DNA from: Bolinopsis microptera
Lineage: Eukaryota > Ctenophora > Tentaculata > Lobata > Bolinopsidae
NCBI RefSeq assembly: GCF_026151205.1
Contig: NC_087084.1
Location: 9,947,453-10,011,452 of the forward strand
Reading direction: 5' to 3'
Length of the DNA: 64,000 nt
The notes under the pieces are model-generated. The model did not search any database, was not told where the DNA came from, and saw only the letters and a program-made list of their open reading frames with translations. The first letter of the stretch is position 1, and each line of letters opens with the position of its first letter. Of the stretch, positions 2,377-33,796 are shown in pieces. The translations under genes were made by a program, and so were the position numbers.

Positions 2377-5300
2377 ATGGAAAACAATATTGATTTGGTA
2401 TGTGTGATCTCGCACTTTGTCTCCTAAAAAATCACCCGCATTTTATTGGCCATACCCTTCAAATATGAAAATAGGTGGAAATAATACCCACGAAAGAGTC
2501 GCTAATGGAGATATAGGGATTTTCAATTTCAGGATGAATCAAATATCTTATCACTCATGGTATTCAGTAGTTGCCATGGTTGTCATGGTAATATTTCAGG
2601 ATAAAGCAGATGTTGAAGTCAGGAGAACTTTGGGTGTGGGGACAGGGAGGAAGCGGACAGCTGGGGACTAAGTCCAACAAGGTAGAGGACCTCCCGACCC
2701 CCTCCAAGAGTCAGATACCTTTCATTGGGATCGCTGCGGGGAAGAACTATTCTATTGCTATCAGCGATGATTTAAGGTGACTGTGAATGGGACTTAGTAA
2801 GTTTGAGTGAGAATTTAGGGTCATGCCGTTATACTGTCAGTGTCAATTACTGTGGTCTTGAAACGATGAATGTTTAAGTTTACATACTCTAATGCAGTTT
2901 TTACAAGGAATTGTAGCCTCATATTGGGTGTTGCCCTTCGTGCCCAAATGTTTTAAAATATAAATATACAACTTTCAATATATAAGCGTTATTTGGTACA
3001 CGTATATTATCATTTTGCATTATTTCTCTTTTATTATCTTCTAACGGATATAACATGTCAGGGTTTACCGATCAGGAGTGCTGTGTAACCAACAAAATGA
3101 TGGAATTAAGGAATTTTCCAGAATTGAGGCTCTCACAAACATAAAGGCAATTGGTACGATCCTTACTTTCCTTAGTTGCATTGTAGTTTTTTCTGACCAA
3201 TTTTAGACGGTCCGTAAATATCAGCAGACTTTTAATTAAACTTACTTTTCATAAGTTTGAAATAAATAAAATTATAAGTTCTCTAAATCCGACTTTCAAA
3301 GTGGGGTTTAGAGAACTTGTAAATGTTAAAATGGACTCATAAACACGAAAATAATAGATCACTTTTACTTCTGACGTTGCTGACTAAAACGTGGTTTCTG
3401 TCACACAGCGGTAGGGCAGTCCCACGCAGCTGCAGTGAATGGTAACGGGGAGATTTACCTGTGGGGTAACAACAAAGACACACAAGTGTGTCCCAAGAGA
3501 ATAGCTCTGGTGCCAAAACCTATGAAAGTTACTGGACTCAACACAGTGTCAATAAAACAGGTAAGCTGGATATGCCAGCTACATTAATAATTCACTTTCT
3601 TTGCTATTTGTTTGTTTGATCAGATCGTAACGGTTACCACTTCATTAAAAGTAGTAATTTTAATTGTTTGACCTCTTTTTCAAACTTGTATTAAGTGTCC
3701 AGCTAATGTATTAATAGAATTAGTAGCGAATATTTGAAGAAGCCATGTGGGCGAAACGTCGGCAATAACTTGTGTTACTCAGAGGAGATAAAAGCCAATC
3801 TCAATTGTACTTCATAATGTATTAATAACCCCACCTAACCAGGTGTGCTGTGGAGAGGGGTTCACATTGTGCCGCACAGTGGACGGTAGACTGTACTCGT
3901 GGGGGCGGGGTCAGTATGGGGTATTGGGGCAGGGGGACGAGCAGCCCCGGAATATACCATCTCTCGTTACTTCTCTCCCTTTTACTGACATTGTTCACAT
4001 TGATGCTGGTCACTCTTATGCTGCTGCTGTGAGTCTTTTCTTGAATTTTAATAATCGTTCAGCTTTATTGATTCTAACTTTAGGGGTCGTTCACATATTA
4101 CATAATCAGCCAAGGGGGAGGGGGGTTTCCAAATGATTACCAGTATAATTTTGATACAATAGCTCTGTGTAAAACTGATTATGGTTAAAAATTGTCCAAA
4201 AAGTGATTACGTATGTGAACGACCCCTTACCGGAATATTTGAAACAATATTCATTTTCATTTTTCTCAAAATATGCAACTCGATTAATAATGAATTGTAT
4301 TAACTCGTATTCCACTTACTGAGCATGGCGCTCAGACTGTCATTTCGCCGCATCTTCAATATGTCTATGAACAGTAATAAGCCTGAGGTCCCAGGTAAGT
4401 ATCCCACAAAACACTCACCATTAAAAACATGATCAGGTCTCACAAGAGGGGGAAGTTTTAACGTTTGGTAAGAACACGGACGGACAGCTGGGACACGGTC
4501 ACAAAGACAACGTGCTGGTTCCAACCCCTGTGGAGGGGATGGGCTCTCATCACGTGGTTAGAGTTAGCTGCTCTCGAGGGGAGAAGGGTTCGTGATTTTA
4601 TACTTATAGTATTTATACTTATACGTCATGCTCACCATGTTATAGTACTTGTACGGTTTTTACCAAATTTTTCTTTAATGACAAGGTCTTACAAGGTCAC
4701 TGAATATGGCACAAGACACAATTGAGGTATTCAAAGTTATATTATATTTGATAAACGGAAACTCATCAAAATATAAAAAGAGATTTTGGAAGATTTTTGG
4801 AGCTTTTCAGAGCTTTTCTCTTGACCAAAATTTCGCGGTTTTGACTGAAATTTTGACCATTGACCAATCATTGAGGTTGGTGAGAGTGACACAAGTTGCC
4901 ATCAAGGTACTGGAAGCAGTATATCCGGAGAAAACTTTGATGCAATGAACATTTTGATGTCCTACCTATTCGAATTTCACCTTTCCGCGACCCAAATTTC
5001 AGCTGCTTTGACTCAATTTTTCTTGAATAGTTGTCCAGTAGTTTTTATAGTGCTTATAGTGCGTTTATAGTTAACATAGCATTCTATTTTCACGATGGTG
5101 AATTAATGTTTGTAATTTTATCGATTGCCCAAAATTTGTTTCTAGCGAGTAATTGATTTGACGAATTGGCAATTGGCAGCGCAATCAAAAAGATCTTTAC
5201 CGGCAGGATGTTTTACTGCGATACTGGTAGATACAGGGTTTGTGTACACAGTTGGAAACGGAACACTAGGCAGACTTGGTACGGGAGAATCCAAAAATAC

Positions 5301-8300
5301 CCTTAAACCAACTAAAGTATGACTTTATGATTAAACTTGTTTATATTATAAATACCCTTAATCGAATTAAAGTATGACTTTGTGATTAGACTTGTTTATA
5401 TTAAATACCTTTAAACCAACTTAAGTATGACTTTGTGATTAGACTTGTTTAAATTATACCTTCTATTTAGCTATTTGTATTTGCATCAACATATTGTCTT
5501 TTAAGGTTGCTTAGGTTGCTCAGCATATTCAGAAACATTTGTAAACCTATTATATCACAATCTAAATTACCATTGAAACTTATAATTTATTATTTATATG
5601 ACTTATATTGGTGAGCCCCTCCCCCTTTCCCTCCTCCCCCTTCCCTCCTCCCCCTCCTCTCCCTCCTCCCTCCCTCCCCCACCCCCCCCCCCCTTAATTA
5701 ACACTACTTCTATTTCAGATACCTTTGTCCTATTTCAACAAAGAGAAGGTGTCTGACATTGTAGCTGGAACAACTATGTGTCACGCTGTTACTGTTACAG
5801 GCAGTGTGTACGTGTGGGGAAGTGGCAATGTAGGACAGACAGGTTTACAACCTTAGGGGTCGTTCACATATTACGTTATCACTTTCTGGCCAATTTTTAA
5901 CCCCCTCCCCCCTCCGTAATCAATATTACACATAGCTATTGTGTCAAAGTTACACTAGCGAAATCATTTGGAAACCCCCCTCCCCCCTTGGCTGATTACG
6001 TAATATGTGAACGACCCCTCATTCCCAAAATTTGCGCGACGAAAACTTTGTGCAGCCTTCCCGTCCAAATTTTTCGCATTCAAATTTTTCGTTAATAAAT
6101 TAATTGAATGGCGAATTAGTTTTAATGGCAAATAAACAGGTTTAACAATTAATATTTCGAATAGTTACTGAAAACAGCTCTCTTCAATAAATGATCAGGA
6201 AAATTATGATTTGAAAAATAACAGATTACATTAATAACAATTATTAATATCTATAACTAATAATAGTGATGATATGATATATTTACCGAAGACAATCATA
6301 AAGCACAATACGAATCACATTTCAAAACATACCATCTCATAAAATATAATTTCATTTTTCTGTACGTAAAGGGCAACAGGTTTTCCAACACAAACGTACG
6401 TCGTGCAGCACTGTTACCATGGCAACACTACTGTTACCATGGCAACACTACTTCCTGTACGTAATGCCCTCCAAAAGAGCAACAGGTTGCTCAACACAAA
6501 CATACAGCACTACTGCAGCTAAATACGACATAACCACTATTCCTAGATAAATAACCGCGAACTCAAAGTCAGGCTTCACAAAGAAAGTGTGTCTAGTTTG
6601 GTCCACCAGTATCACGATCAGACCAAAGTGGATGAGGTAGACAGAGTAGGTGAGTCTAGAGAGTACCAGCCACCCTTTCCAGCTGAGGAGTGAGTTGATG
6701 AACCCTCCTAGACCAAACTGACAGAGGAGTACCTGCGTGATCAGAGCCAGAGACCATCCTATCCTCGCTAGCATTTGGTAGGAGATGCTGTCTGTTTTGG
6801 AGGTGGCTTTACCGTGTATAAAGTGGTCCTGTATATCGTGGTAGAGACCGAACACCACCTCATATTCCACAGCAGCAGTTGCTATCCACAGTGGTGTTGC
6901 TATAACAACCTTCTTCCAGACTGGGAGTGTTTTAACCTTCTCCTGGACCTGCTCCCCCCAGCACCAGTAGAACCACCCTCCCAGTATCCCCACCAGGTAG
7001 GGGCTTATCCTAGTCCAGGGTACTCTGTATACCTTGGTGTAGTTTAGAGGGTTCCCGAGTGACATTGAGGGGGCGAGGTTGTAGTGGGCGGTAATAACTG
7101 CCGCTGCAATAGCACTGCAGCTGATAGTTACCGTGGTGACGAGATTGCCGATCAGAGGATAAGCAAATAAGAGGACGATGAATACAGGGGCTATGATGAA
7201 GAACTGCATGTCATTGGCAAGGTACCAACTTTGACCCAGGCAGTTTTGACCTGTTGGATTCCAGGGAACTAGATTATTGATGTAGAGCAGGTTAGTCCAC
7301 CAGTACTGCTTACAAGTAGCGTGGTTGGTACCAACATCTATATCAACTGAGAAGGGTCCTGATACCAGGTGTCTGTACAGAAACCCCTCAAACAATATCA
7401 TCACCAGGTACGGGGTAGTCAGTCGGATGTACCTGTGGACGTAAAAAGCAGTCCACTGTGGTATCGAGAGGAGACCCTTCTTTGTCAACTGTTTTAATAA
7501 AAGGAAGCTCACTAGGAACCCGCTCAAAGTGAAAAATGAATCAACAGAGGAGAAAGCATTAGCAATCAGTGTGAAGCCTCGACTTTGCAGTAGCTTCGCC
7601 AGATCTCCTGGGTCTCCAAGCATACCGCTCAAAAACGCAAAAGTATGTCCGAGGATAACCCAGTTTATACTGAGAACTCTGATGCCGTTGAGACAGAGAA
7701 CTTGTCCTGGTTTTGTTTCGACGGCTGTGAGGGTTTTAAACGTTCGCTGAAGAGCGAAACATTTTATGGCTTTACTTATCATGGATTCAGATTGGATTTG
7801 TGACTGTTCTTTCTCGGATGGTTCCTGTTCTTGAACAAGGTTATCCGTGTCTTCATCATCGTCCATAATTCTGGTATCCTCTCTAACACTCAAGAGGATT
7901 GAGTGCAGAAGGTGCCAGAGTGTTCCAAATACCACAAGAGAACCTACAACTGCTAGGAATGTAATGGCAGCATAAGCTCCGGCATCAAACTCCAAATCCT
8001 CCTCACACGCTACCATCCACTTAGCAGGATCTGCAATCACCTTCCCTTTGGTTGTTTTATTTAACCATGCACTGAGATACGGTAGAGCTGATCCAGCTAA
8101 TTTTCCATCAAGACACTCGTTTGGGAGACACCCAGTCCAAGTCAGTGGTTCCGGGAAAGGCACCCCTCCAATTGATAACGATCCTGTTACTTTACAGCTC
8201 TGGTAATTATTCTTGGTTAAGTTCCTCAGAGAATCACACATTTCGTAGCTCCCGACCCAGATAAGATTGCCTCCTGTCAGTCCTGGACCTGGCTTACCTG

Positions 8301-10457
8301 CTGCGTCCAGGAACCCAATACTTTCTTCAGTGATCTTTGTTATGTCCACCAAAGTGTTCAGCTTTTTTAAGCAATCACTGGAGTTTCCTGGGCTGAGTGG
8401 AGGGTGAAAGTTAGAGTTGCTCCCGACATCTGGGACTCCAATAGATTGTAGTAACTGTCCGACTCGAGCTTGAGGTGAAGCTAGCGCTGAGTAAAATAGA
8501 GCAGTGTCTTCACTTGTAGCGGACAGGGTTAGGTAGAGGAGTATAAAGGACAATCGTAAACATCTGCCACGTGACTTCATAACCTTCTGTTCAGGCCTTA
8601 AAATATTGTGGTTAAATCTCTACACAGTATCGATATTCATTGACAAAACAAATAATCAAATAAATTATAACATTAATTGTAATCAAATTTCCAACAATTA
8701 AGTGATAGCTAATGAATTTTTGTATGTATAATAAATAATTACTATCAAACTGCAGTTTTATAGTAATCAGGAATAAAAAATATATAATTAGAACTGTCTG
8801 TGAAATCAGAAGTGAGAAAAAAAGGAAACGTCCTATTACACCAAGCAGTCTTATCTTTAAAATGTATTAAATCACCAAGTATACACGCCGGTTACCATGG
8901 TTTCATGTGACGCCACAAACTGATACACGTACAGAATATACTACTCAAGTTCAGATTATAAACTGGGAGTGGGTGTATAGTAACCGTGTGGGTGCAATAG
9001 TAACCGTATTACTATCGTGTTGCTGTGCAATCCTGCATTCGCTACAAGGATCATGACCTAACACATATTCTCACCCAGGTCTCCTAGAGGCAAGAAGGAT
9101 CAGGAACTTTGCAACCTAACACATATTCTCACCCAGGTCTCCTAGAGGCAAGAAGGATCAGGAACTTTGCAACCTAACACATATTCTCACCCAGGTCTCC
9201 TAGAGGCAAGAAGGATCAGGAACTTTGCAACCTAACACATATTCTCACCCAGGTCTCCTAGAGGCAAGAAGGATGACCAACCTAACACATATTCTCACCC
9301 AGGTCTCCTAGAGGCAAGAAGGATGACCAACCTAACACATATTCTCACCCAGGTCTCCTAGAGGCAAGAAGGATGACCAACCTAACACATATTCTCACCC
9401 AGGTCTCCTAGAGGCAAGAAGGATGACCAACCTAACACATATTCTCACCCAGGTCTCCTAGAGGCAAGAAGGATCAGGAACCAACCTAACACATATTCTC
9501 ACCCAGGTCTCCTAGAGGCAAGAAGGATCAGGAACCAACCTAACACATATTCTCACCCAGGTCTCCTAGAGGCAAGAAGGATGACCAACCTAACACATAT
9601 TCTCACCCAGGTCTCCTAGAGGCAAGAAGGATGACCAACCTAACACATATTCTCACCCAGGTCTCCTAGAGGCAAGAAGGATGACCAACCTAACACATAT
9701 TCTCACCCAGGTCTCCTAGAGGCAAGAAGGAACCTAACACATATTCTCACCCAGGTCTCCTAGAGGCAAGAAGGAACCTAACACATATTCTCACCCAGGT
9801 CTCCTAGAGGCAAGAAGGATCAGGAACCTAACACATATTCTCACCCAGGTCTCCTGGAGGCAAGAAGGATCAGGAACCTAACACATATTCTCACCCAGGT
9901 CTCCTGGAGGCAAGAAGGATCAGGAACCAACCTAACACATATTCTCACCCAGGTCTCCTAGAGGCAAGAAGGATCAGGAACCAACCTAACACATATTCTC
10001 ACCCAGGTCTCCTAGAGGCAAGAAGGATCAGGAACCAACCTAACACATATTCTCACCCAGGTCTCCTAGAGGCAAGAAGGATCAGGAACCAACCTAACAC
10101 ATATTCTCACCCAGGTCTCCTAGAGGCAAGAAGGATCAGGAACCAACCTAACACATATTCTCACCCAGGTCTCCTGGAGGCAAGAAGGATCAGGAACCAA
10201 CCTAACACATATTCTCACCCAGGTCTCCTGGAGGCAAGAAGGATCAGGAACCAACCTAACACATATTCTCACCCAGGTCTCCTAGAGGCAAGAAGGAACC
10301 TAACACATATTCTCACCCAGGTCTCCTAGAGGCAAGAAGGATCAGGAACTTTGCAACAGAACGTCCCAAGAAAATAGAAGCCCTTCCTAAAGGTCGTGCA
10401 GTTACCGCCATATCCTCCTCAGTTGACCACGTACTGGCTTTGGTGGAAAATGAGTAA
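2377..10457 (+). CDS. RCC1-repeat (beta-propeller) protein, multi-exon
   Basis: Exons, with matching phases: 2377-2397 (possible first, MENNIDL), 2610-2776, 3062-3153, 3409-3560, 3843-4028, 4437-4587, 5207-5316, 5719-5842, 10321-10457 (stop TAA). The product is about 372-379 residues, the size of one seven-bladed RCC1 propeller. Typical blade motifs are visible: LWVWGQGGSGQLG, EIYLWGNNK, LYSWGRGQYG, VLTFGKNTDGQLGHG, VYTVGNGTLGRLGTG, VYVWGSGNVGQTG, and the closing ALPKGRAVTAISSSVDHVLA. RCC1 propellers usually act as protein-interaction or GEF modules; no HECT or other extra domain is seen. The start is uncertain: either ATG 2377 joined to an acceptor before 2610, or ATG 2610 itself. The exon ending at 5842 is followed 13 bases later by a MITE that supplies a misleading in-frame TAG at 5854; phase and homology show the true continuation is the exon at 10321. 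The last intron contains a complete minus-strand gene. Confidence 0.85.
4083..4226. mobile_element. MITE, PIF/Harbinger-like (copy 1)
   Basis: Terminal inverted repeats GGGGTCGTTCACATATTAC and its near complement are flanked by TTA on both sides (4080-4082 and 4227-4229), the target duplication typical of PIF/Harbinger elements. It lies in an intron of the RCC1 gene. It is related to the copies at 5856 and 13691. Confidence 0.75.
4317..4397. repeat. dispersed repeat with ACCTGGGGACCTCAGGC-type end
   Basis: It contains gctcagactgtcatttcg and a region ending cctgaggtcccaggtaag. Relatives occur near 36950-37170, 43390-43475, 44975-45035 and, as a complete inverted-repeat copy, 51181-51330. It is a fragment of a short non-autonomous element. 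Confidence 0.5.
5290..5458 (+). repeat. three-copy tandem repeat across an exon end and donor (RCC1 gene)
   Basis: Unit of about 57 bp: exon tail (aatacccttaaaccaact), donor aaa/gtatgact and about 30 intronic bases. The first copy is the real exon-intron junction at 5316/5317; two diverged copies follow in the intron, each with its own gtatgact. Confidence 0.8.
5856..6018. mobile_element. MITE, PIF/Harbinger-like (copy 2)
   Basis: The same GGGGTCGTTCACATATTACG inverted repeats, flanked by TTA (5853-5855) and TCA (6019-6021, a mutated duplication). It is inserted 13 bases downstream of the splice donor at 5843 in the RCC1 gene. Confidence 0.75.
6361..6530 (-). repeat. imperfect duplication of the 3' end of the acyltransferase gene
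   Basis: A stretch at about 6370-6412 (gggcaacaggttttccaaca) repeats the last coding segment at about 6476-6515, with gttaccatggcaacactact twice between them. The second copy lies beyond the stop codon, so a coding-end/3' UTR boundary has been duplicated. Confidence 0.55.
6448..8580 (-). CDS. NRF-domain / acyltransferase-3 multipass membrane protein
   Basis: A single uninterrupted frame of 710 residues. Residues 1-23 form a signal peptide (LSFILLYLTLSATSE). The NRF (nose-resistant-to-fluoxetine) cysteine-containing ectodomain covers about 55-195 (ECLDG, MVACEED). One membrane segment lies near 205-230. From about 295 comes the acyltransferase-3 domain (LNGIRVLSINWVILGH with its Asn/Gly-His signature, then VDSFFTLSGFLVSFLLL), with about ten membrane spans. 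This is the Caenorhabditis NRF-6/NDG-4 family, thought to move or acylate lipids and small molecules; the substrate here is unknown. The length is normal and no lesion is seen. The gene is intronless, unlike its surroundings, and lies wholly within the last intron of the RCC1 gene on the opposite strand. Start chosen at ATG 8580, just before the signal peptide. Confidence 0.92.
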   Translation of the reverse strand: MKSRGRCLRLSFILLYLTLSATSEDTALFYSALASPQARVGQLLQSIGVPDVGSNSNFHPPLSPGNSSDCLKKLNTLVDITKITEESIGFLDAAGKPGPGLTGGNLIWVGSYEMCDSLRNLTKNNYQSCKVTGSLSIGGVPFPEPLTWTGCLPNECLDGKLAGSALPYLSAWLNKTTKGKVIADPAKWMVACEEDLEFDAGAYAAITFLAVVGSLVVFGTLWHLLHSILLSVREDTRIMDDDEDTDNLVQEQEPSEKEQSQIQSESMISKAIKCFALQRTFKTLTAVETKPGQVLCLNGIRVLSINWVILGHTFAFLSGMLGDPGDLAKLLQSRGFTLIANAFSSVDSFFTLSGFLVSFLLLKQLTKKGLLSIPQWTAFYVHRYIRLTTPYLVMILFEGFLYRHLVSGPFSVDIDVGTNHATCKQYWWTNLLYINNLVPWNPTGQNCLGQSWYLANDMQFFIIAPVFIVLLFAYPLIGNLVTTVTISCSAIAAAVITAHYNLAPSMSLGNPLNYTKVYRVPWTRISPYLVGILGGWFYWCWGEQVQEKVKTLPVWKKVVIATPLWIATAAVEYEVVFGLYHDIQDHFIHGKATSKTDSISYQMLARIGWSLALITQVLLCQFGLGGFINSLLSWKGWLVLSRLTYSVYLIHFGLIVILVDQTRHTFFVKPDFEFAVIYLGIVVMSYLAAVVLYVCVEQPVALLEGITYRK
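8581..9054. other. AT-rich intronic spacer
   Basis: Upstream of the nested acyltransferase and within the last RCC1 intron. No exon or element is recognised. It presumably contains the acyltransferase promoter. Confidence 0.3.
9055..10341 (+). repeat. minisatellite spanning the last RCC1 splice acceptor (about 25 copies)
   Basis: Unit of 43-60 bp: intron end acctaacacatattctcacc-cag, then exon start gtctcctagaggcaagaagg and a variable tail (atcaggaa, atgacc or none). The final copy is the true acceptor and exon start at 10321. Every upstream copy carries the same cag acceptor and exon beginning, so about 24 decoy acceptors precede the real one. Confidence 0.93.
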
Positions 10458-10600
10458 TCATCCAGGAAAACACGTACTAACTTTGGTGGAAAATGAATAG
10501 TAACCCGGGAAAACATGTACTGGCTTTGATGGAAAATGAATAGTAACCCGGGAAAACATGTACTAGCCTTGGTGGAAAATGAATGTCATACGGGAAAACT
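10426..10600 (+). repeat. four-copy repeat spanning the RCC1 stop codon
   Basis: Unit of about 43 bp: last codons (cgtactggctttggtggaaa, atgag), stop taa and the first UTR bases (ccgggaaaac). The first copy is the real coding end at 10455-10457; diverged copies follow in the 3' UTR. Confidence 0.85.
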
Positions 10601-10729
10601 GGGAGGTGTTAGTTTTAACATACGATGGAAGATTTCAACGGCGGATTGATTGTTATATTTATACGTAAACACAAACCTCTCAGTCTCCATATCGAAGTAC
10701 AATAAGACTTAATTAGGTTTGTGGAAATA

Positions 10730-10841
10730 CAGTAAAACCTCGATTTACCACAGAGTTGGGGGGGGGGAGGAAACATTCGCGCTAAATCAGGGTTGGTGGT
10801 ACTGGTATTAAATCGGGGCGCGGTTAATCGGGGTTTTACTG
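10730..10841. mobile_element. Tc1/mariner- or pogo-like MITE
   Basis: Ends CAGTAAAACCTCGATTTA and its near complement (taatcggggttttactg) are flanked by TA on each side. At 112 bp it is non-autonomous. It lies between the RCC1 and mosaic genes. Confidence 0.75.
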
Positions 10842-11593
10842 TACTAAGAAATACCGAGAGGAAATATCAAATATGTCATAATATGGTGTTATATCTACTC
10901 CTATAGTGTATGGGTTCTCAAAATGCGACATTTAAAATTGGCATGCACATTCTGATTCATTTGGGAGCTTGTTTTCAGTTTGGGAGGTTTGTTTTGATGT
11001 CCACAAAATCTTGTTTATTTCTAACTTTTCTTGAGAATATGTATGTTATCTATAATTTATTATTTGGATATGTTAAACTAAAGACCTTGCTGTTTTTATT
11101 TGTTTGATTTTGAAATCTGAAATTCTTTCTGCAGCTTTACACATAGTCTTATGACTATGAGTCTGCAATAAACATACTAAAGCCTCGCGACGACTGACAT
11201 GCCAGCTATTCGGACATTAACAGGGAATTTCCCAAACTGTCTGCGCCCAGTTTTAGTAAATACGTTAGCACCAGTTCACACATTAGAGCATTAGACATAA
11301 ACTCTCTCTTTTAACCTCGCGGTAAACACACATTATATGTTCACCGGAGGTGTGCTGGTGGGAAATATTAAAGCTTTTCCTTGAATGCACTGTACACAGC
11401 TAGGACCGGCGTAAAATACAAACAATCATTATCGCTGTTTACTTAGCCCTTTGCTGTGGAGAAATTGCGTCTAGCTTTGCAAGTTGTTTGTTTAGTGTCC
11501 AACCTTTGAGCTGTGCAGTGTGCAGGGGTGTTGTTGTCCGGAGTGCAGTTTGTTGAGAGGAGAATTTGTTTTGTTGCTTGATTCTGATTTAGG
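10842..11593. other. intergenic region upstream of the mosaic gene
   Basis: No coding evidence. It separates two head-to-tail plus-strand genes and should contain the mosaic-gene promoter. I see no clear core element. Confidence 0.3.
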
Positions 11594-14500
11594 ATGTTTC
11601 TGAGGGTTTTTGTTGTTTTATCCGTGGTTCTAGTTCTGGCTTCTGCTCAAGGTTAGTTGTAATCAGTAGGGTTTTATTACTTTTTGTATCATGTTCCATA
11701 TCATGTTACTCTAGCCTAGCCAGCGGCCAGCACAACCTGCCCTCTTTGGTAATAACACAATATTTAACATTGGTTAAGTGAGGTTCAATAATAATAACGA
11801 CCGTTCTTTTCATCAGAAGTAGAAGATGAATCACCGAGGAACTGTTATGATATAATAGACGCAGATAAAGGGAAGATAAGATACAGTGGAACTGTGTCTG
11901 AAACAAAGACTGGTCGTACTTGCCAGAGGTGGGACAGCCAGGAACCACATAGCCACAAGAAATCTCCTGAAAACTTCCCCAATAAAGGTGCGACCATCAC
12001 TGATCACTTCTTCCGAAATAGAAGGAACGCATCAGCCACTTTATTAGGCCTCAACTTTTGGTCTACATAAAGTTCTAATAATTAATTTTAATTCACTGTC
12101 AATAATAATTCAATGATAGCTGTTTCATGGTGTTATCGGTGAATATCATATGAAATGGCAGCTGTTTTAAAAAACCTCATAATAAACCTCTTTGCAGATT
12201 TATCAGACAACTACTGTAGAGATCCTGATAACTACGGTTACCCCTGGTGCTTCACCACGGATCCCAGCAAGAAAAGAGAGAGATGTAACATATCCGACTG
12301 TAGGGAACTGGCGGCTCTACAGGCTGAGGAGATTCCTACAGGTTGGTTTATTAATTAGTGCCTTATACGGTAGTGTTATTATGGTAAAATTGCCTTATGT
12401 GGTAACTCATAATTAACAGATAGGTACAGGTTGGTTGGTTAATTGATATGAAGGCAACCTTGTCATGTGAGAGAGAAAACTACCTAGAATTAGAGGGACC
12501 TTCTTCTTCCATAAGGCTAGTCTCACTAGTGAAGCTTGTTCGTCATAATGCTACAACCTCCCCCCCCCCCCCCCCCCCCGCCACCCCCCATGATCAGAAG
12601 AAGAATACTAATGGAAAATATAACGAAACAGCATGTTATAAAGTTATAACATGACTAACACCCCCCCCCCCCCCTCTCAGATTGTTTCAAGACAAAGCAG
12701 AAAAGTGGTACTAACACATTTGACGTGCTCTATGGAGGAACTGTAGCGGAGACAGCTAGAGGTATCTCCTGTCAGAAGTGGAGTGAGCAGACACCTAACG
12801 AGCATGATAGAACCCCCGACCTCTTCCCTAATACAGGTGATACATTCTTGTCGTAATGATATAGTTGGAGGACTTCGCCGCTTCGACGCGCAAACTATCA
12901 TTCTTACTTCGCATCGCAGATTGTTGCTCTGTTAATTCGCAGAGCAACGATCTGGAAGGGTTGACATCGTCAATCAATGATATGGCTATAGTATATAGGG
13001 TTGCCCAGAAGGAAATGCTCACACGCAACTCCTTCACCATGTAATTCTTGTCAGAATTGTGCAAAAATCTCCGAAATCGTAGCATAGATACGGGTTAAAT
13101 AAATCATAGGTATGGGTTAAATTTAGATTTCTTGAAAATTTCCGTTGCTAATTTCGATCGGATTTTAAGTAGCAATTATTTTTAGCGGCTCATGAAGCTA
13201 TGATAGGGATATTCATGATACTTCAGATAAATTGCCTGTAGGAAAACCCCCATTTTCTAGGTCTAGGGGACCACAACTAATAAAACCCCCTGATTTGCTA
13301 GGTCTAGGGGACCACAACTAATAAAACCCCCTGATTTTCTAGGTCTAGGGGACCACAACTAATAAAACCCCCATTTGCTAGGTCTAGGGGACCACAACTA
13401 ATAAAACCCCCATTTTCTAGGTCTAGGGGACCACAACTAATAAAATCCCTGATTTGCTAGGTCTAGGTGACCACAATTTATAAAACCCCATTTGCTAGGT
13501 CTAGGTGACCACAACTAATAAAACCCCCATTTGCTAGGTCTAGGGGACCACAACTAATAAAACCCCCATTCTCTAGGTCTAGGGGACCACAACTATTGCA
13601 GAGACCCGGACGGTACAGGCTACCCCTGGTGCTACACCACGGAACCTGGTGTTAGGTGGGAGGGGTGCTCCGTTCCTGACTGTGATGGTATGTTATTCAG
13701 CTGATTACGTAATATGTAAACGACCCCAAAGTAAACTAGCGTAATCATTTGGAAACCCCCCTCCTCCCTCGGCTTATTACGTAATAATATGAGAATTGTG
13801 AACGACCCCTTACACTCTTATTTTGTGCCGATTTTTATTAATATCCTGATATCTGGCGTTTAAAACTGATTCAGATAATTTTGTGAACAGTGTAGTGGTT
13901 TTTAGCCGAGATTTCTGAACAGGAGCTATGATGTAAGTATTTTATTTAAAAAATTTTATTTTTCAGATCCCGACCGAAACAGTGAGTACAAATGATTAAC
14001 AACAATTAATTAATTAATTGATTAAGAGTTCACAATTATGGACATTAAAACATTGAATATCTGTGACAAGGAATATGAAAATGTGTAGAGTCTCGAATCG
14101 ATAAGTGAAATTATTTTTACAGGCCAGTAGACCTTGTTCTTTTTCCCCATTTCGCTTTACTCCACGACTTAGATCCCTGGTTGAACTCTACTGGGCCCTT
14201 GCCAGTAAACTTTACACATCCTCTACACTTGCAGTGTTGAGGGGAGGCACCACACCACCCTTTCTTTGAGCAGCACGAGTAATTCTGAAATTTACAAGAT
14301 CTTTACTATCTTACTGTAGATGTGATAGAAATTAGTGTTTAAACTATATCGGTTATGTACTTTTAGGCAATAATGAAAGCCTGCATCAAGTGTCTAACTA
14401 AAACATGAGTAGCATAATAAAACTCCACAAATACTCCTCACTCCTTCTCTAAACGATACCTTGTTGCTGCTCGGATCACACTGAGCTGCCATACCGTTAG

Positions 14501-17500: not shown

Positions 17501-20500
17501 TTCTCTTCGTAGAGCTTACTGGAACAGTGAGTCCACCTCCTTCCTCAACACTCATTCTCTTGACAGTTCCTAACTCTTCTCTTCGTAGAGCTTTCTGGAA
17601 CAGTGAGTCCACCTCCTTCCTCAACACTCATTCTCTTGACAGTTCCTAACTCTTCTCTTCGTAGAGCTTTCTGGAACAGTGAGTCCACCTCCTTCCTCAA
17701 CACTCATTCTCTTGACAGTTCCTAACTCTTCTCTTCGTAGAGTGTACGGATCTAGAGACGCTGGACAAGTACGATTTAGGAGAACGCTGGACAAAAGAGG
17801 ACCCCTGTACTTACTGCGAGTGCTTCTCTGACCGTGAGTGATTAACTAATTAATTAACTAAATAATTAACTAATTAAACAAAAGAGGACCCCTGTGATTA
17901 TTAGCCTGCTATTCAAAATAAACCCTGGTTGAACTTAAAACGTATTTACCCATAACTTGTGAAGAAAACGTTATTCTTATGAATCCGGATCGAAAGACTG
18001 GTCTGATATTTTTGATTTGCTTAAGTTGTCTTTAAACGTCCTTTCTCTCACAGGTCTTGTGGACTGTTTCACGATTGAGTGTGATATTATGGAGTGTCCT
18101 GCTGGAGTAACTTATCTTCCCGATCAGTGCTGTCCTGTTTGTAAGTAATTAACTAATTAACCAATTACTAATTAATATTATTAGTATTTAAATACTTAAT
18201 TAATTATTATAGTTGATTAATTAATTACAATATCAGTAGATTTTTTGGTCAAATGCTATGTCAGAATCAAGTTTCACCAAATTTTCATGCCCCCCCCCCC
18301 CTCCTTAAAGACTGTGGTTGCAAATTTAAATCGACGAAATTATTATATTTTTAGACACTTAAAGACATTAAAGACTTTAAATTATTATTTATTAAATTAA
18401 TTAATAATTAATTATTAACCCCCACAACCAGGTGCTGAGCCGTGTATGGACGTGAGGAACGGTTATGTGTACAGTGTTAATGACACCTGGACACCCAATG
18501 CTTGCGAGAGCTGCACCTGCGTGGAAATGGGTGAGCAATTAAGTAATTATTTAACTAATTAACCAATTAACTAATTAACCAGTCAACTAATTGAATAATT
18601 ATCTCTTTTGAGTTAAATCTTTATTAAACTATTGAAAACTGAAAACACACGTCAGCATTTCATATACTTATTAGCCGTTATATTTTACTATCTACAATCA
18701 TCTTCAATCTCAATTGCCTTACACAGCTTACACACATAACTGAAGATACCTATTGTCATGTTCATACCACAAACTCTACAGATGGAGTTAAAAGAGAAAT
18801 GTGTGCAGTGACGGACTGTGCCCCGCTACCTGAAGGGTGTGAGCCTTCCTACACTGAGGGGACCTGCTGCCCGAGCTGTGAGTTAAACTTGTTATGTACT
18901 TACTATTTTAGCTCTGTTCAAACACAAGGATATAATATCCTAATCAGTGAGATGAAATTATAGAATGCTACTCCACCACTATTCACTACCATCTTCAATA
19001 TCAGGCAGTGAAGAGTGCAGAGATGATGAATCTCTGGAGTATTACAATGTGGGAGATAAGTGGAACCCTAACCCTTGTACTATGTGCGAGTGTCTGGAAG
19101 AGAGTGAGTTTAACATTTACAACGTTCCTTAGTAACGTTCCTTAGTAACGTTTCTTAGCAACGTTCCTTAGTAACGTTCCTTAGTAACGTTCCTTAGTAA
19201 CGTTCCTTAGTAACGTTCCTTAGTAACGTTCCTTAGTAACGATCCTTAGCGACATTCCTTAGCAACGTTATCAAACCCTTCAGCTGATGTTAAACTTGAA
19301 GCGCTTGTGAATGGTAACTTTGAAGTTTTAGATAAAATTATAAACTTCTGCTTATAATGGTTGTTTATCTTCTGGAATAAGCACAGTCAAATAAATGTAG
19401 ATTTGGATTTTTTTAATGTTAACTTATTAACTAATTAACTAATTAAAGACGGTCCCCTAAAATGATTTACCACCGGTTTAAAATGATCTAATATTTACAA
19501 GCATTGACAAATTGTACAATTAAGGTATTTACAATAATTAGTATTTACAATGACTGCTGACTCAACTCCCTGTTGTTACCAGACAGTCAGAAGCGAGAAC
19601 TGTGTGCTCAATACTACTGTGAACTGCCTACCCACTGTTACAATGTTACCTACTCTGAGGACCAGTGCTGCCCCTTCTGTGAGTTATCTTTATCTAATCT
19701 CTTCTATCTTCGGGGGGGGGGGGGGGGGGGGTGGGGGGGGCGGTGGGGGGCCAATGTCCCTTTTGTGAGTTACTATATATCTCCTATCTTTATCTCTTCT
19801 ATCTTTTCTTTTCTATCTATTGTGAGATTATTAACCTCATGAGATATTAATTCATGAAACGTTACTATACAGTTACTATGCACGATGGTGTATCCACCTG
19901 GTAAACATGACTATTATGTTATTAATCAGGAGTTTTACAATTTACATCCTCGGATATTTTATTTTAAAACAATAATTTCATTATAATCCATTTCAGGCGG
20001 AGAGTCACCATATAACGGTAAATATAATGTATAGTTTATATATTATATAATGTATACAATATAATGTATAGTTTGTTTTCAAAATGTATAGTTTGTTTTC
20101 AAAAAATGTTTAATCGTACTTTTTCAACCTCTTGATAGGAAAAGCAAATTACTTAAAACTAACTAAGCTCCCCCCTATCAGAGTGTTTCGACATGACAGC
20201 GAACAACACTATTCTATATGACGGAGAATTAGCCGTTACAAAGTCCGGGAACGAGTGTCAGTTCTGGACATCTCAGCTCCCCAATATCCACACCCGGACT
20301 CCGGAAAACTTTCCTGACGTGAGAACAATTTACTGGCTGAGAACAGGCTTTGAAGTTTATTTTTAAAATGTATCTCCCTTTTACTAAATCAAGCAGATAA
20401 TTTCTTGTAAATATACTGAGATCAAACTATCAATTTACTGGCTGTCGTCAAACATGTTGCAAGGCGTCATCTACAGTTCCGTACAGACTCAACTCTGCAC

Positions 20501-23500
20501 CCGTGTCAATATGTTCATTATATGCAAGCCTCTTGATTTATAAGCCTCTAATTATTTGTTTTATAATGTTCTAGACTTCTAGTGTTTTAGTGTCGAAAGT
20601 ATTAAAACTTGATTTATCAAACTTGATCGTATTTGTTGAAGAAGTTTTAGAAAACAAACAACATGAGGTTTAGTTGTGAGTCATGCTTTTTTATAGTGAC
20701 TCAAATATTCAGCAATCGCGTGCTAGTTACTTAGTAACCAATGATGACATCCCAGGCGTTGCTAGGATTCCACAACTTCTGTAGAGATCCCGACAATTCA
20801 GGTTACCTGTGGTGTTATGTTAATAACGAGGATACCAGATGGGAAAAGTGTGATGTGCCCTCTTGTAGACTACTAGGTAAGTGTGATGTGCCCTCTTGTA
20901 GACTACTAGGTAAGACCTGGCAGCTCTATTGTTTTAAAAAGATGTGAATTTAAAACTTTATAAGACTCAGATGTTATTGTTGACCAAGTGAATTTACAAT
21001 TAAACGTTTACAGTTAACTCCGATAACTGGGTGATGGAAGACGCGGTGATGAAATCAGCAGTTATTTGTCAAGACACTATCGGTAGAGTAGAGGTAAATG
21101 ACGCTATCTATAATTCACCTAAGTTCCTTTTCCACGATTGTTGTTACTGGCCTCTTCTTTCACGTGATATCAAATTTGTAATTACCTACTTTCTCTACCC
21201 ACTCTTGTTACCCTTAACGTGATACCAATAGAGTGAAACGTTCACCCTTAACGTGATACCAATAGAGTGAAACGTTCACCCTTAACGTCATACCAATAGA
21301 GTGAAACGTTCACCCTTAACGTGATACCAATAGAGTGAAACGTTCACCCTTAACGTCATACCAATAGAGTGAAACGTTCACCCTTAACGTGATACCAATA
21401 GAGTGAAACGTTCACCCTTAACGTGATACCAATAGAGTGAAACGTTCACCCTTAACGTCATACCAATAGAGTGGAACGTTCACCCTTAACGTCATACCAA
21501 TAGAGTGAAACGTTCACCCTTAACGTGATACCAATAGAGTGAAACGTTCACCCTTAACGTGATACCAATAGAGTGAAACGTTCACCCTTAACGTGATACC
21601 AATAGAGTGAAACGTTCACCCTTAACGTCATACCAATAGAGTGAAACGTTCACCCTTCACGTCATACCAATAGAGTGAAACTTTCACCCTTAACGTCATA
21701 CCAATAGAGTGAAACGTTCACCATTAACGTCATACCAATAGAGTGAAACGTTCACCCTTAACGTCATACCAATAGAGTGAAACGTTCACCCTTAACGTCA
21801 TACCAATAGAGTGAAACGTTCACCCTTAACGTCATACCAATAGAGTGAAACGTTCACCCTTAACGTCATACCAATAGAGTGAAACGTTCACCCTTAACGT
21901 CATACCAATAGAGTGAAACGTTCACCCTTAACGTCATACCAATAGAGTGAAACGTTCACCCTTAACGTGATACCAATAGAGTGAAACGTTCACCCTTAAC
22001 GTCATACCAATAGAGTGAAACGTTCACCCTTAACGTCATACCAATAGAGTGAAACGTTCACCCTTAACGTCATACCAATAGAGTGAAACGTTCACCCTTA
22101 ACGTCATACCAATAGAGTAAAACGTAAAGTGTTTAAACTGAAGGAGTTTGACCGCTCGTGCTGTTTAGTTGTTATTCCTTTATAAAGGGTACACTACGGC
22201 ATTTTTTGCTCAACAAATTACGATTTGGTTGCCAATAAAATGTAATCGGACTCACTGCACCTTTTATTTTAATTTATCGATTGTTTGCAAATAAAATGTT
22301 TGCAAGTGTTTGAAAATATCACAAACCAGATAAGCTGGTTTCAGTTTACCATCTTTACCATAAACACCGTGAACATCAGGCTTCAAATGAAACAAAGTAC
22401 ACTTATCACTCAACTGGTTTTATGTTTCGCCACAAACCGGTTTAGTAGTTTTCAACACTCACTACCACCGGCTGCTGCCAAGTAAAATAAACTCTCATGA
22501 TATGAGATATCTTAACCAAGTACGTTATGTCGCTGTTCAGTGTTCATTTATCACTCAACTGCTTTTATGTTTCGCCACAAACCGGTTTGGTAGGTTCCAA
22601 CTCTCACTACCGTACAATAAGGTCTTATGATATGAGATATCTTAACCACGTTCGTTACGTCGCTGTTCAGTGTTCACTTATTATATCACTCAACCGGTTT
22701 GGTAGGTTCCAACTCTCACTACCGTACAATAAGGTCTTATGATATGAGATATCTTAACCACGTACGTTACCTCGCTGTTCAGTGTTCATCACAAATGGCA
22801 TGAACAGGTTGCAACCAATTCTATTGCAACTAAAAATCAACAACTTGAGAGCAGTTTGTTGACTCAACAAGTTCTTGAGATATGATTTGTTTATATAGCT
22901 ATAAGAGTAACTATAATACACTATAAAAGTAACATAATATTTATCATGTTTCGCTATAATTGTGAGTGGGTCAGTCTCCCGTCCGTCAGTCCGTCCCCAA
23001 CAAGTAAACACAAATAATGTTTTATCTTCTCAACAGTGCGACAGTGATAAGCGGATAGTAGTGCTGGAAGCGAACTACGGCGCTACTGGGACCCAGGGTT
23101 GCTTCGAGTACTCCAACTCCAGCTTCTGTAACTCTACAGTTCAGACATCAGGTTAGTACTCCAACTCCAGCTTCTGTAACTCTACTGTTCAGACATCAGG
23201 TTAGTACTCCAACTCCAGCTTCTGTAACTCTACTGTTCAGACATCAGGTTAGTACTCCAACTCCAGCTTCTGTAACTCTACTGTTCAGACATCAGGTTAG
23301 TACTCCAACTCCAGCTTCTGTAACTCTACTGTTCAGACATCAGGTTAGTACTCCAACTCCAGCTTCTGTAACTCTACTGTTCAAACATCAGGTTAGTACT
23401 CCAACTCCAGCTTCTGTAACTCTACTGTTCAGACATCAGGTTAGTACTCCAACTCCAGCTTCTGTAACTCTACTGTTCAGACATCAGGTTAGTACTCCAA

Positions 23501-26500
23501 CTCCAGCTTCTGTAACTCTACTGTTCAGACATCAGGTTAGTACTCCAACACCAGCTTCTGTAACTCTACTGTTCAAACATCAGGTTTGGGTCCTAATATA
23601 TTCTCTCTAGGAGAAGATATGGAGAATTGGAGAAGTTGAAGATGGGGTGCTTGAAAGATTCGTTATTTTACCTTTTCTAAGATTTGATACTCCCATTGAT
23701 GAACAGATAAACATAGTTACAACTAATTACAACGCTACGAATCTATTACATTTATTGAGTACTATGTAACGTGATGGAAATATTTTAAACGGGTAATATC
23801 CTGTGCAAACCCAGGATACATAACATGAATACTTTGTTGTAACTTTGTATGAAAAGCATTAATAGGAACCAATGAAACATCCCACAGAATCAACAAAAGA
23901 GAAGTGTGATGGTAAAAGTTACTGTGACTTATCTGTCTCAGTTGACAACTACGAATCTTCATGTGACACCGAGGAGAAATATTTGAACATTAGCTACTAC
24001 TGTAAACCTGGTGAGCTTAGTGGTACTTCGTTACCATGACAACTACTTAGTATTACGTAATCTTTTCTTTTCTATGTCTCTTTCCGTTCTTATCATTTCT
24101 TTCTTGTCCTTTTTTTCATATCTATTTTTCTTTTGAGACACCAAATATCATGCAATAGATGCCTACTGATCATAAAATTAACTTAAGATCTACCTAATAT
24201 CATACCTTACTGAGACTCACCTTGGGCAATGAAGATTATTCTAAACTGTCGCTGATAAAAGTATACAGATAAAATTTCGTTGTATTTTTAACGTTTCGCA
24301 CTCTCGCAGATATTCCATGCTACAAGAAAGCAAACGGGTTCGCTCTCTACAACGGCTCTCGGTCAGAGACAAAGTCAGGGAGAGAGTGTATGAGGTGGAA
24401 CCAACAGAGACCACATGGTCACGACTTTACTCCTGATGTATCAGAGTATGCCGAGAGAGGTATGTACAATGTATAATATACCCGGACAGACTAATATTTA
24501 AAAACCTCAGGAGTTGGAGAACACAACTACTGCAGAGACCCGGACAGACTAATATTTAAAAACCCCAGGAGTTGGAGAACACAACTACTGTAGAGACCCA
24601 GAGAGACTAATATTTTAAAAGCTCAGGAGTTGGAGAACACAACTACTGCAGAGACCCGGACAGACTAATATTTAAAAACCCCAGGAGTTGGAGAACACAA
24701 CTACTGTAGAGACCCAGAGAGACTAATAATTAAAAACCCCAGGAGTTGGAGAACACAACTACTGCAGAGACCCGGACAGACTAATATTTAAAAACCCCAG
24801 GAGTTGGAGAACACAACTACTTTAGAGACCCAGAGAGACTAATATTTAAAAACCCCAGGAGTTGGAGAACACAACTACTGCAGAGAACCGGACAGACTAA
24901 TATTTAAAAACCCCAGGAGTTGGAGAACACAACTACTTTAGAGACCCAGAGAGACTAATATTTAAAAACCCCAGGAGTTGGAGAACACAACTACTTTAGA
25001 GACCCAGAGAGACTAATATTTAAAAACCCCAGGAGTTGGAGAACACAACTACTGCAGAGAACCGGACAGACTAATATTTAAAAACCCCAGGAGTTGGAGA
25101 ACACAACTACTTTAGAGACCCAGAGAGACTAATATTTAAAAACCCCAGGAGTTGGAGAACACAACTACTTTAGAGACCCAGAGAGACTAATATTTAAAAA
25201 CCCCAGGAGTTGGAGAACACAACTACTTTAGAGACCCAGAGAGACTAATATTTAAAAACCCCAGGAGTTGGAGAACACAACTACTGCAGAGACCCGGACA
25301 GACTAATATTTAAAAACCCCAGGAGTTGGAGAACACAACTACTTTAGAGACCCAGAGAGACTAATATTTAAAAACCCCAGGAGTTGGAGAACACAACTAC
25401 TTTAGAGACCCAGAGAGACTAATATTTAAAAACCCCAGGAGTTGGAGAACACAACTACTGCAGGGACCCAGACAGACTAATATTTAAAAACCTCAGGAGT
25501 TGGAGAACACAACTACTGTAGAGACCCGGACAGGGAAGGGAAGCCCTGGTGCTATACCATGGATCCGGAGAGGAGGTGGGAGTTTTGTGGTGTCCCAGAG
25601 TGTGAAGGTATGTTTTATCCAATGCGAAAGAAACTCTCGCGCAATAATTTGGTTTGCTAACTCCTCTCTTACACTTGATGGTCACATGTTGGTCACCTTA
25701 TCCAACTATGTTTTATACTTAATAAGTTAATGATCACATATTCCCCTTAATTTGCGACTTCGTTCAACGCCGCGCGCAAATTTTGAAATGTTGTGTTTTC
25801 TCTCCACAGCTCTTCTTCACAGCTCTGTTATCATACTGTTCATCTACAGGGTTTACTGAAGAACGCCCCATGGTAATGGCAAGTAAAGCTTCAAACATTA
25901 TCAGACTTATAGGGGACGCTAAGAACATTGACTGCCAGTATGTTAAAGATGGAGACGACAGAGTTACTTATATTGGTAATTAAATTAATTGCCTACTTAC
26001 TTTGGTTACTTTTCAGAGTAACTTATATTAGGAACTAAATTAATTACCTACTTACTTTGGTTACTTTTCAGAGTTACTCATATTTGTAATAGAATTAATA
26101 ACTTAGAGATGTTTAGTGTTCGAACCGTTGTATTGGGTGTCTCATTAAACGTTAATTCTCATGTTTATAGCTGCAATCAGGGCCCGATGTAAAGGCTATG
26201 ACTGGACATTTGGTGTTTCGGTGTTTATTGATTTACAAATTGTGATGCTGATCTCAGTTGTGACTGATTTTTCTATGGTCCTTTTTATTTATGTTAATCT
26301 TGACTGCAGGTCAGACTAACGTAACAGCAAGTGGTAGAACCTGTCAGAGATGGAGTGAGACCACACCACACTTCCACACTAAGATGCCTGAAAGGTTAGT
26401 CACCAAGTAGTTGTCATGGTAACGAAGTAGTAAGATAGTAATAAGTAGCAAGATATTGCTATTTATAGCTGAAAGGTAAGGGTCCACATTTGAAATTCAC

Positions 26501-28965
26501 CGCATATGCTGGGGTTGGTACTGAATGTTCGTCGTGGTGCCCAGTGTAGTTGTAACTTTGTAATTGTTGTCATGGTAACACCGGGCCATTATATTCTTAT
26601 GAGGGGTCGCACTATTTAAAAATGTAACAAAAAATGTTTTTAGTTAAAACTTAAACCTTGATTCATCCATAAAGTCACGAAGTAATAAAATGGAGCTATT
26701 GAATTGAACTAATTAACTAATTAAATAATTAACTAATTAACTAATCAACTAATTAACTAATTAACTAATTAACTAATTAATTATAATGGTGGCCTAGTGG
26801 TTAGAGCTTCCGCCTTCTGTACAGAAGGTTCAGGGTTCGAATCCCAGTGTCACTCAGTCTAGGGAGTAGCTAAGGATTCATCGGATCTATGCGATCTCCT
26901 CGGTCGACTCAGCCGAATGATAGGAAACTTGATTGAGGGTTAAATGAGGAGGGGGGCCTGTGCCAAAAAGATCAAGAATCTTAGGATACTCCTTCAGAAC
27001 ATCTACAATGTAGTATAGTGTACTGTAAAATAAGGGCGGTCGAAATATTCGATGACCCTGTAGAGGAATCTACGAACTTTACAAATTATACAAATTTATT
27101 ATCATGTTGTCAGGTATCCGGATGCAGGTCTCGGAGAGCACAACTTCTGTAGGGACCCTGACGGTAACGGCAAACTCTGGTGCTACACTATGGACCCTCA
27201 GAAACGGTAGCTAATCCTACTTTTTAGTTGTTAACATGTACTTTATAGTAGTTACTTTATAGTAGTTAACATTTTATAATTCATCACTCAACAGAGTTTT
27301 TTCCCCGTTACAAGGACATTTTTGAAACGATGAATATTTTGCTGGGATATGTGACCAACGTTCACTTCAAATTAGAGACATCTGAAAATGGTGTGTCCCA
27401 TTATCCCATAAACCCTTCACTCGAACTAGCTGTTCGGATTCAAAACTGTAATGGTATTTCTAAACAGGTTCGAGTACTGCGAGATTCCCAAATGTACAGA
27501 AGAGGAAGTGGAACAGATGGGACTCTGTACAGATGTAGACTGCGGAGTGGGGGGAGACTGCTACATTAACAAGTTAGTAGGGGGGGGGGGCTGCTATATT
27601 AACAAGTTAGTGGGGGGGCTGCTATATTAACAAGTTAGTGGGAGGGGGGACTGCTACATTAACAAGTTAGTGGGGGGGGGGCGACTGCTATATTAAATTT
27701 AACAAGTTAGTGGGGGGAGTTAGTTTATCTTATAAAGTTGTAATTATGAGTCTAGAGAATAAAGAAGATTTCACAGAGAAACAAAACATTTTTGGTTCGT
27801 AAAAATATCTATAATATACACCATTCCTGTGTGCCCACATAAAACTGAAATTAAGTTTCAAACGATACTCAAATACTCGTGGCGGGTACACTAAACCCAC
27901 TTGTCCCCCCTCTTGTAGAAGTGCCCCTCAAAGAGTGACTCACCCCCCTGACTGGTCACTAATACAGTATCAGAGAACCCGACTGCTCCTTTTCCTGGTA
28001 ACTGTATCCAGGGTATGAGATGAATAGTCATGTTTTCCTGGAACAGTTCCTCTGAAGTAGGGTGGATGAAGAACTGAGAGTTGCTCCAGTCAGTGTAGAA
28101 CCCTATCCCTATAGAGTAGCCCGCTCGCTCCGACTGCTTGTGAGGGTAGGGGTAGTGAGATATAATGTCTCTCATAGCTGCATCTACTTCTTTAGCTGCT
28201 ACCCCTGGTTTCATCATCTGCCGCCCCACACTCACTGCCTTCCTGATCAGCTTCTCAGCTGCAGTGAACCACTCCGGAACTTCATCTCCCACATAAACAC
28301 TGTACATTCTGGCTGCATGGTACCTCTTAAAGCAACCTCCTATCTCAAAGAACACAATGTCATGTTCCTGCACCAGCATCTGAGTGGGAGTGTAATGGCC
28401 CATACAGCCAGTCTCCCCGCTGCACAAGAAGACAGGGTACGCCGTGTACTCACACCCCTCTCTACACATCTTCTCCAACACCTTCCCTCCCACTTCCGTC
28501 TCCATCATACCTGCACACACCGTCCCAATACCGGCCTGGAGACCCGCGTGCACTATTCCCGCTGCTCGCTTTACATTGGAGATCTCTAGTGGGGATTTTA
28601 CTAGTCTCAGTCTGGATACCTGGAGGGAGATGTCGGAGAAAGTGGCGCGCGGGAAGATCTTCAGCAGTTCTTTCTGGAGTTGGTTGACCTGGTTGTAAGC
28701 GAGTCTAGTTGTGTTGAACTCAAGTCCGATTATAGTAGCAGTGTCACTACCGTACCTGCCTTTAACTGTACTGGCAATAATGTCTATAGGGTCCTGGGAC
28801 TCGTCGTAGAACGAGTAAGCCACGTGAGATCGCATCTCAGCGTTCGTAGCCTCCAGTTCCCTTGTGACGATGTGGATGTCGTCCTGTGTCACCAGCAGCA
28901 CCTATTTAGAAAAGTTTAGATTAAGTGCTATTAAAGTACCATTAAAGTACCATTAGAATACCATT

Positions 28966-28996
<31 letters not shown>

Positions 28997-33480: not shown

Positions 33481-33525
33481 TATGTTGTTTTAGACGGCCC
33501 AAGCGTTTTTTAGACGGCCCCAACG

Positions 33526-33750: not shown

Positions 33751-33796
33751 TATTGCAGCGTCTGGTTCAAGAAATTGACTGGCAGTGGTTATATAT

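Follow-up and report, generated by a model that had tools for sequence, protein, structure and literature searches.

Minisatellite arrays that straddle exon-intron junctions in the ctenophore Bolinopsis microptera

The stretch of DNA analysed here (the window) comprises 64,000 nucleotides of the ctenophore Bolinopsis microptera (assembly GCF_026151205.1, contig NC_087084.1, positions 9,947,453 to 10,011,452 of the forward strand); a published account of the genome of this species gives 265 Mb, 13 chromosomes and a guanine-cytosine (GC) content of 38.5% (PMC11797021). Several genes of the window, among them genes for RCC1-like and kringle proteins, carry tandem arrays in which the repeated unit contains an exon-intron junction. 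An earlier note, made from the letters of the window alone, had pointed to nine arrays at splice junctions and one across a stop codon, and had suggested a general process in this genome. Junction arrays are real, and they are present beyond the window.

Tandem repeats were detected with Tandem Repeats Finder (TRF) and the sequence was also inspected by eye; all ten arrays of the earlier note were recovered and read in this way. Genes were predicted with a small gene finder of our own, run on the sequence with each array collapsed to about one copy, and proteins built from the predicted exons (two exons were joined by hand) were matched to Pfam. Proteins adjoining the window arrays match RCC1, Kringle, SUEL_Lectin, VWC and Chitin_bind_1. 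On the collapsed window the gene finder placed junctions at 5316, 13577, 20876, 23151 and 25975, and two more within the single unit that collapsing had left of an array, at 14953 (corresponding to 16433 on the minus strand) and 24511 (corresponding to 25497). Four gene models bear arrays, not the three genes originally claimed, and two of the kringle models may be one gene. After curation, nine tandem units in the window span an exon boundary, five at donors and four at acceptors.

The donor arrays (a slash marks the junction) lie on the plus strand in four cases. In the RCC1-like gene, TRF reports three copies of 53-55 bp at 5295..5458, with the junction CTAAA/gtatga at 5316/5317 closing the predicted exon 5207-5316. 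A kringle exon ends in an array of 2.1 copies of 33 bp at 20846..20914 (CTACTAG/gtaagt, 20876/20877; TRF, gene finder). Within the SUEL-lectin domain, 10 copies of 48 bp occupy 23107..23586 (ACATCAG/gttag, 23151/23152; TRF, gene finder), the Pfam match to SUEL_Lectin being obtained with the next exon joined by hand. The array at 25959..26099 (55 bp, 2.6 copies; TATTG/gtaatt, 25975/25976; TRF, gene finder) had been overlooked in the earlier note. On the minus strand, the gene for the Chitin_bind_1 protein carries 36 copies of a 42-bp unit at 14921..16459 (array 14934 below; CCTCAAG/gtattt, exon end at 16433; TRF, gene finder, Pfam). As a separate observation, the unit of the array at 25959-26099 holds an acceptor-like TTTTCAG beside the donor, so that a single copy could in principle serve as its own exon.

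The acceptor arrays are all on the plus strand. The first, at 9056..10349, consists of 25 copies of 54 bp (cccag/GTCTCC, 10320/10321; TRF, by eye) and precedes the last RCC1 exon (10321-10457), which the gene finder overlooked and which was added by eye and joined by hand into the protein that matches RCC1. The stop codon of this exon (TAA, 10455-10457, confirmed by eye) lies within the array over the stop codon, at 10428..10599 (plus strand, four copies of 43 bp; TRF). Two arrays precede the second half of a kringle domain: nine copies of 39 bp at 13243..13595 (ctag/GTCTAGGGGACC, 13576/13577, predicted exon from 13577) and 18 copies of 58 bp at 24480..25527 (ctcag/GAGTTGGAGAAC, 25496/25497), both supported by TRF, the gene finder and a Pfam match to Kringle. 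The fourth, at 17362..17742, consists of five copies of 76 bp before the first VWC exon (cgtag/AGTGTACGG, 17740/17741; TRF, Pfam VWC). Its unit is nearly all intron, with an exon part of about 2 nt if the acceptor is GTAG/AG, and the gene finder picked a different AG of the unit (17415).

The four acceptors and five donors of the earlier note stand at acceptors 10320/10321, 13576/13577, 17740/17741 and 25496/25497 and at donors 5316/5317, 16433 (minus), 20876/20877 and 23151/23152; eight of the nine claimed junction arrays thus hold a supported junction. The description of the units as exon plus splice site fits these eight, which all contain the junction, with the reservation made above for array 17362. 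The fifth donor is doubtful. It was placed in an array of 4.7 copies of 28-32 bp (27549..27696, plus strand, TRF) at the 3' end of the last kringle gene model, where the gene finder sets a donor at 27572 (AACAA/GTTAGT). Because the frame continues past this point, for about 56 nt, to a stop within the array, the array more likely represents the end of a terminal coding exon than a donor.

Reading frames favour the copy attached to the exon as the splice site that is probably used. Reading through the first donor would meet a stop 4 nt on in array 5295, 3 nt on in array 23107 and 6 nt on in array 25959. At the acceptors, an in-frame stop lies upstream of the last copy at a distance of 6 codons (13243), 4 codons (24480, in the kringle frame) and 9 codons (17362, in the VWC frame). 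In array 9056 there is no stop for 21 codons upstream, but use of any of the five preceding acceptors would shift the frame. These seven arrays thereby back the proposal that the true site invariably occupies the outermost copy. Yet this position is dictated chiefly by the frame and, to some extent, trivially by geometry, and two donor arrays do not single out one copy: both copies of 20846 stay in frame, and in 14934 two donors appear usable, because the frame stays open through the unit that follows the donor and the read-through stop (16370) comes only after the second, in-frame donor.

The same frames bear on the idea that the arrays are coding repeats which would be translated as far as the distant copy and so lengthen the protein. 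The open frames of 20846, of the first unit of 14934 and of the doubtful 27549 up to its stop would suit it. In seven window arrays it is contradicted by in-frame stops, whether just past the donor (three arrays), after the second donor (14934) or just upstream of the acceptor (three arrays), and we consider it highly improbable.

Five blocks of 40 kb were fetched at round coordinates before inspection (37-44% GC across window and blocks). Seven block arrays with a footprint of at most 200 bp were called straddling; by eye, six of them look right and one lies beside a retroelement-like open reading frame (B3 28303), and a real donor array (B2 6322), whose gene has no Pfam match, had first been overlooked. 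The curated set again numbers seven, with donors at B2 6322, B3 8986, B5 28627 and B5 30442 and acceptors at B2 39385, B2 39775 and B5 20186; 5' and 3' intron boundaries are thus both affected, in the blocks as in the window. Epimerase, DUF4139 and RhoGEF/kinase genes are among the bearers according to Pfam. Junction arrays occur at about 4% of the 166 junctions predicted in the blocks (a small sample), and seven curated arrays in 200 kb would correspond to roughly 9,300 in the genome (95% Poisson range 3,700-19,000), a rough figure from five blocks only. In block B5 (25272-29194, L025-L028) one RhoGEF/kinase gene model contains a 71-bp donor unit in two separate arrays (24 copies and 8 copies), of which only one touches a junction.

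Kringle domains, many of which an intron interrupts at the same point, offer a view of junctions that is independent of the gene finder. With 150 of 327 candidates scored, 154 matches were obtained; the contig copy C131, half-domain matches with other end points (e.g. 1-52, 1-56, 1-58, 11-68) and unlisted matches were left out, and the short-intron acceptor of L079, without an array, is not among the acceptors counted. As many kringle loci are closely related paralogs, the counts should not be read as independent. Outside the window, 3 of 22 fetched kringle acceptors carry a straddling array (L051, and L061 with its paralog L077), two of them independent, and within the window 2 of 5 do so by eye (13243 and 24480). 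L061 and L077 have a 55-bp unit in common, present in at least 13 and in 4 copies, respectively. At kringle donors outside the window, a junction array was found at 0 of the 15 fetched. No straddling was visible for four other arrays of similar unit size at these loci, of 44 bp (L062/L068), 42 bp (L068), 35 bp (L076) and 37 bp (L077). The suggestion of a general process is thus borne out as far as occurrence beyond the window is concerned, by the curated block arrays and by these acceptors.

The acceptor arrays of L051 and of window position 13243 are unlinked; their exon parts end alike (CACAACTA) and their intron parts differ. A second haplotype of the window locus was considered and rejected, a kringle exon of the window matching only itself in the genome. 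An assembly artefact is scarcely credible: copies differ at 2-42 columns per unit (the figure of 42 is exaggerated by the way gaps fell in one array), arrays of a similar type are found at unlinked loci, and a chromosome-scale assembly of this species has been published (PMC11797021).

The earlier note had held that random intronic minisatellites would rarely hit junctions and had proposed a count of repeats at exon boundaries. Our main set comprised arrays with a period of at least 20 and a score of at least 100, and an array was counted as straddling if its collapsed unit contained a predicted junction; exons shorter than 20 nt yield no junctions. In the first count 19 of 69 arrays straddle (null 6.0; blocks alone 9 of 45, null 2.5). 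If survival alone is assumed, random placement is restricted to positions touching an intron, over the observed introns, and 19 of 42 intron-touching arrays straddle where 9.0 are expected (blocks 9 of 26 versus 4.0). Footprints above 200 bp were excluded from all later counts, which drops B1 28479, B4 31935 and W 56029, straddling in the first count; this gives 16 of 39 versus 7.2 (7.7 with GC-matched placement), and in the blocks 7 of 24 versus 3.0 (p=0.02). Curation removed B3 28303 and W 27549 from the junction class and added, by eye, B2 6322 and W 9056.

In the curated set, 16 of the 40 arrays that touch an intron straddle a junction, versus 7.6 expected (p=0.001), with 9 of 15 versus 4.2 in the window only (p=0.009) and 7 of 25 versus 3.4 in the blocks only (p=0.04). 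Setting aside B2 39775, which runs off the block end and has its exon body outside the block, leaves 15 of 40 (p=0.003; blocks 6 of 25, p=0.10). Without the additions made by eye the count is 13 of 39 (p=0.016; window 8 of 15, p=0.03; blocks 5 of 24 versus 3.0, p=0.17), and a looser definition (period at least 12, score at least 50) yields 16 of 93 versus 10.2 (p=0.036; blocks 7 of 61 versus 4.4, p=0.14). These p values assume independent arrays and are too small, because several arrays share one gene. Base composition was rejected as a cause of the excess, which GC-matched placement barely changes, and so were overlong predicted introns that might inflate the null, since the excess persists with introns capped at 1, 1.5, 2 and 3 kb.

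A junction bias of about twofold overall is thus indicated but not settled; it is clear in the window, which was picked for it, and no more than suggestive in the blocks. Straddling exceeds chance, but chance straddling is not rare: the 143 introns have a median length of 339 bp after collapsing, and with introns this short some of it is expected. A pure survival filter would build on this. Duplications would then arise at random and exonic ones would be lost, with the apparent excess due to small numbers, curation and gene clustering. By chance, between a fifth and a quarter of the arrays that touch an intron would straddle, and the excess in the blocks alone shrinks with strict curation (p=0.04 to 0.10 and 0.17) and with the looser definition. 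On the other hand, window and blocks together show the excess in every curation, with GC matching and with capped introns, and straddling arrays recur at kringle acceptors outside the window. We regard this explanation as possible, though not as the probable one.

Copy number differs between related genes. In an inverted pair of DUF4139 genes (L017-L020, C3:3.0 Mb; B3 7747-19629 and 20903-35761), the third exons lie about 25 kb apart, and the donor of this exon has six units in one copy and one in the other, the exon and intron flanks being otherwise nearly identical. The trinucleotide ATC, repeated at the two limits of the unit, occurs once within the exon and once within the intron. Together with the at least 13 versus 4 units at L061 and L077, this pair reveals length instability between gene copies.

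The DUF4139 pair also bears on the possibility that spare splice-site copies are functional, as redundant sites or decoys that tune splicing, and are kept by selection. Such a role would agree with the retention of GT or AG in most copies and with the number of arrays; the near-identical gene copy without an array speaks against it. In 11 arrays, 3 of 22 splice dinucleotides of spare copies are variable versus 3.2 expected (gaps counted, P=0.62); these columns show no greater constancy than adjacent columns taken at random, as expected if the spare copies are unused. Dinucleotide constancy in these arrays gives no sign of selection on the spare sites, and we consider a function very unlikely.

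Where the ends of a duplication can be read, plain microhomology is short: 3 bp in 20846 (AAG), none in 23107, 1 bp in 17362, 2 bp in B2 39385 and 4 bp in the doubtful B3 28303. The exon share of the unit ranges from 0.03 to 0.94 and is evenly spread (mean 0.52, Kolmogorov-Smirnov (KS) p=0.72, 11 arrays; with blocks added mean 0.49, KS p=0.16, 17 arrays), and the 23 purely intronic arrays do not crowd towards junctions (KS p=0.42). Breakpoints are therefore not tied to the junction. With the exon share so evenly spread, duplication ends held at a fixed point there are not seen, and junctions as the start point of duplication, which the earlier note had raised, are not supported in this strict form. 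A looser form, in which transcription or splicing seeds duplications at or near junctions (R-loops, a paused polymerase or RNA-templated repair), would account for the roughly twofold excess beyond GC in window and blocks and for the occurrence at donors and acceptors on both strands; given the even spread of unit ends, the uncrowded intronic arrays and the 0-4 bp of microhomology, we think it unlikely.

The following model seems probable to us: ordinary short tandem duplications are tolerated since the copy attached to the exon survives, with a modest and unproven bias towards junctions in addition, and the result is a ctenophore counterpart of the 'mirages' of amphioxus. A short tandem duplication of some tens of bp, with at most a few bases of microhomology defining its ends, would arise near an exon edge, and the array would then grow and shrink as any minisatellite. 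Where the unit spans a donor or acceptor, one copy would remain joined to the body of the exon, and all the extra copies would lie further into the intron. The joined copy would keep being spliced, and the rest of the array would simply be intron. Selection may tolerate such an array because it is intron, whereas an exonic array would change the protein. The alternative offered in the earlier note, that only arrays keeping the true site at the correct edge survive, agrees with the reading frames, and this half of its interpretation is well supported.

Several points weigh against this model. Survival alone predicts 7.6 of 40 straddling arrays and 16 are seen (13-15 under strict curation), so that something may be missing from the survival account; the roughly twofold excess beyond placement and survival, if it holds genome-wide, is left unexplained. 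The copy taken to be used is inferred from reading frames, and 20846 and 14934, with their open copies and second usable donor, do not conform neatly. The difference of six versus one unit in the DUF4139 pair fits gain and loss alike, and the 15 kringle donors fetched outside the window are bare. A bolder version, in which straddling minisatellites number in the thousands in ctenophores, arise at about twice the rate given by neutral placement and survival, and make junction-biased duplication a continuing source of intron growth, is tentative and in our judgement rather unlikely.

Other features of the window are recorded here. Two purely intronic arrays serve as controls in the overlap table, one clear of any junction (21210..22125, 27 copies of 34 bp, TRF) and one of 1.9 copies of 112 bp (22580..22788, TRF). 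A further gene, for an acyltransferase (Acyl_transf_3 / NRF type, 6428-8596, minus strand), is nested between exons of the RCC1-like gene on the opposite strand. An array of about 65 copies of a 60-bp unit (YNMATNQAPTSVVSQDTLLL) at 55831-59885 (minus strand) falls within the exons of a large predicted gene or in the gaps between them. The frame that stays open changes from one part of the array to another, and the unit contains a donor-like GTAAGT; this may be a coding array or a donor array. Between 26780 and 26870 there is a B box like that of a transfer RNA (tRNA) (GGTTCGAATCC), perhaps part of a short interspersed nuclear element (SINE), while ARAGORN found no tRNA in the window. Outside predicted genes, a single 23-bp unit forms arrays of 101 and 4.6 copies at 39367-42390.

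Repeats of this kind have already been named in amphioxus; in this ctenophore they look common. As presented in the cited sections, 'mirages' were described in Adh3 and the globins BflGb6 and BflGb9, with somatic instability of the Adh3 mirage (PMC3087553); another account adds TnC and compares duplications in PGBD5 to mirages (PMC3902484). The same accounts place them in a few genes and suggest a cephalochordate phenomenon (PMC3087553, PMC3902484). Our literature search found no report of such junction arrays in ctenophores. Mirages in a ctenophore suggest either that the process is much more widespread or that a separate one is at work, and both possibilities would bear on how introns grow and change; they also make a bias of tandem duplication towards exon edges testable. 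For annotation they are a warning, since at such arrays a gene finder is confronted with a run of numerous equivalent splice sites.

The ctenophore arrays share with the amphioxus mirages, as these are set out in the cited text (PMC3087553, PMC3902484), minisatellite-like copies of the exon-intron boundary at 5' or 3' intron ends, AG or GT in many copies, variable copy number and an apparently intact gene structure. They differ in the phylum (Ctenophora), in reaching up to about 36 copies and in their density of about 7 per 200 kb (a small sample), compared with reports from a few amphioxus genes; normal splicing is reported there by reverse transcription PCR, and in the ctenophore the reading frames favour the copy attached to the exon. 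Intron gain by tandem genomic duplication, as outlined for potato RdRp (PMC4974935) and in the AG/GT proto-splice model (PMC3087553), likewise duplicates exon sequence and multiplies splice signals. In the potato case a new intron arises inside an exon (PMC4974935), whereas the ctenophore arrays lengthen an existing intron at its edge; a gained intron would lie between two copies of a segment, and in eight of the nine window junction arrays the other intron boundary lies outside the array. For another ctenophore, Hormiphora, tandem repeats are put at 13% of the genome, and many nested genes are described (PMC8527503). Ordinary intronic minisatellites, or variable number tandem repeats, are alike in unit size, homogenisation and copy-number change, but the ctenophore unit includes exon sequence together with the splice site, and straddling in window and blocks reaches about twice the expectation from placement.

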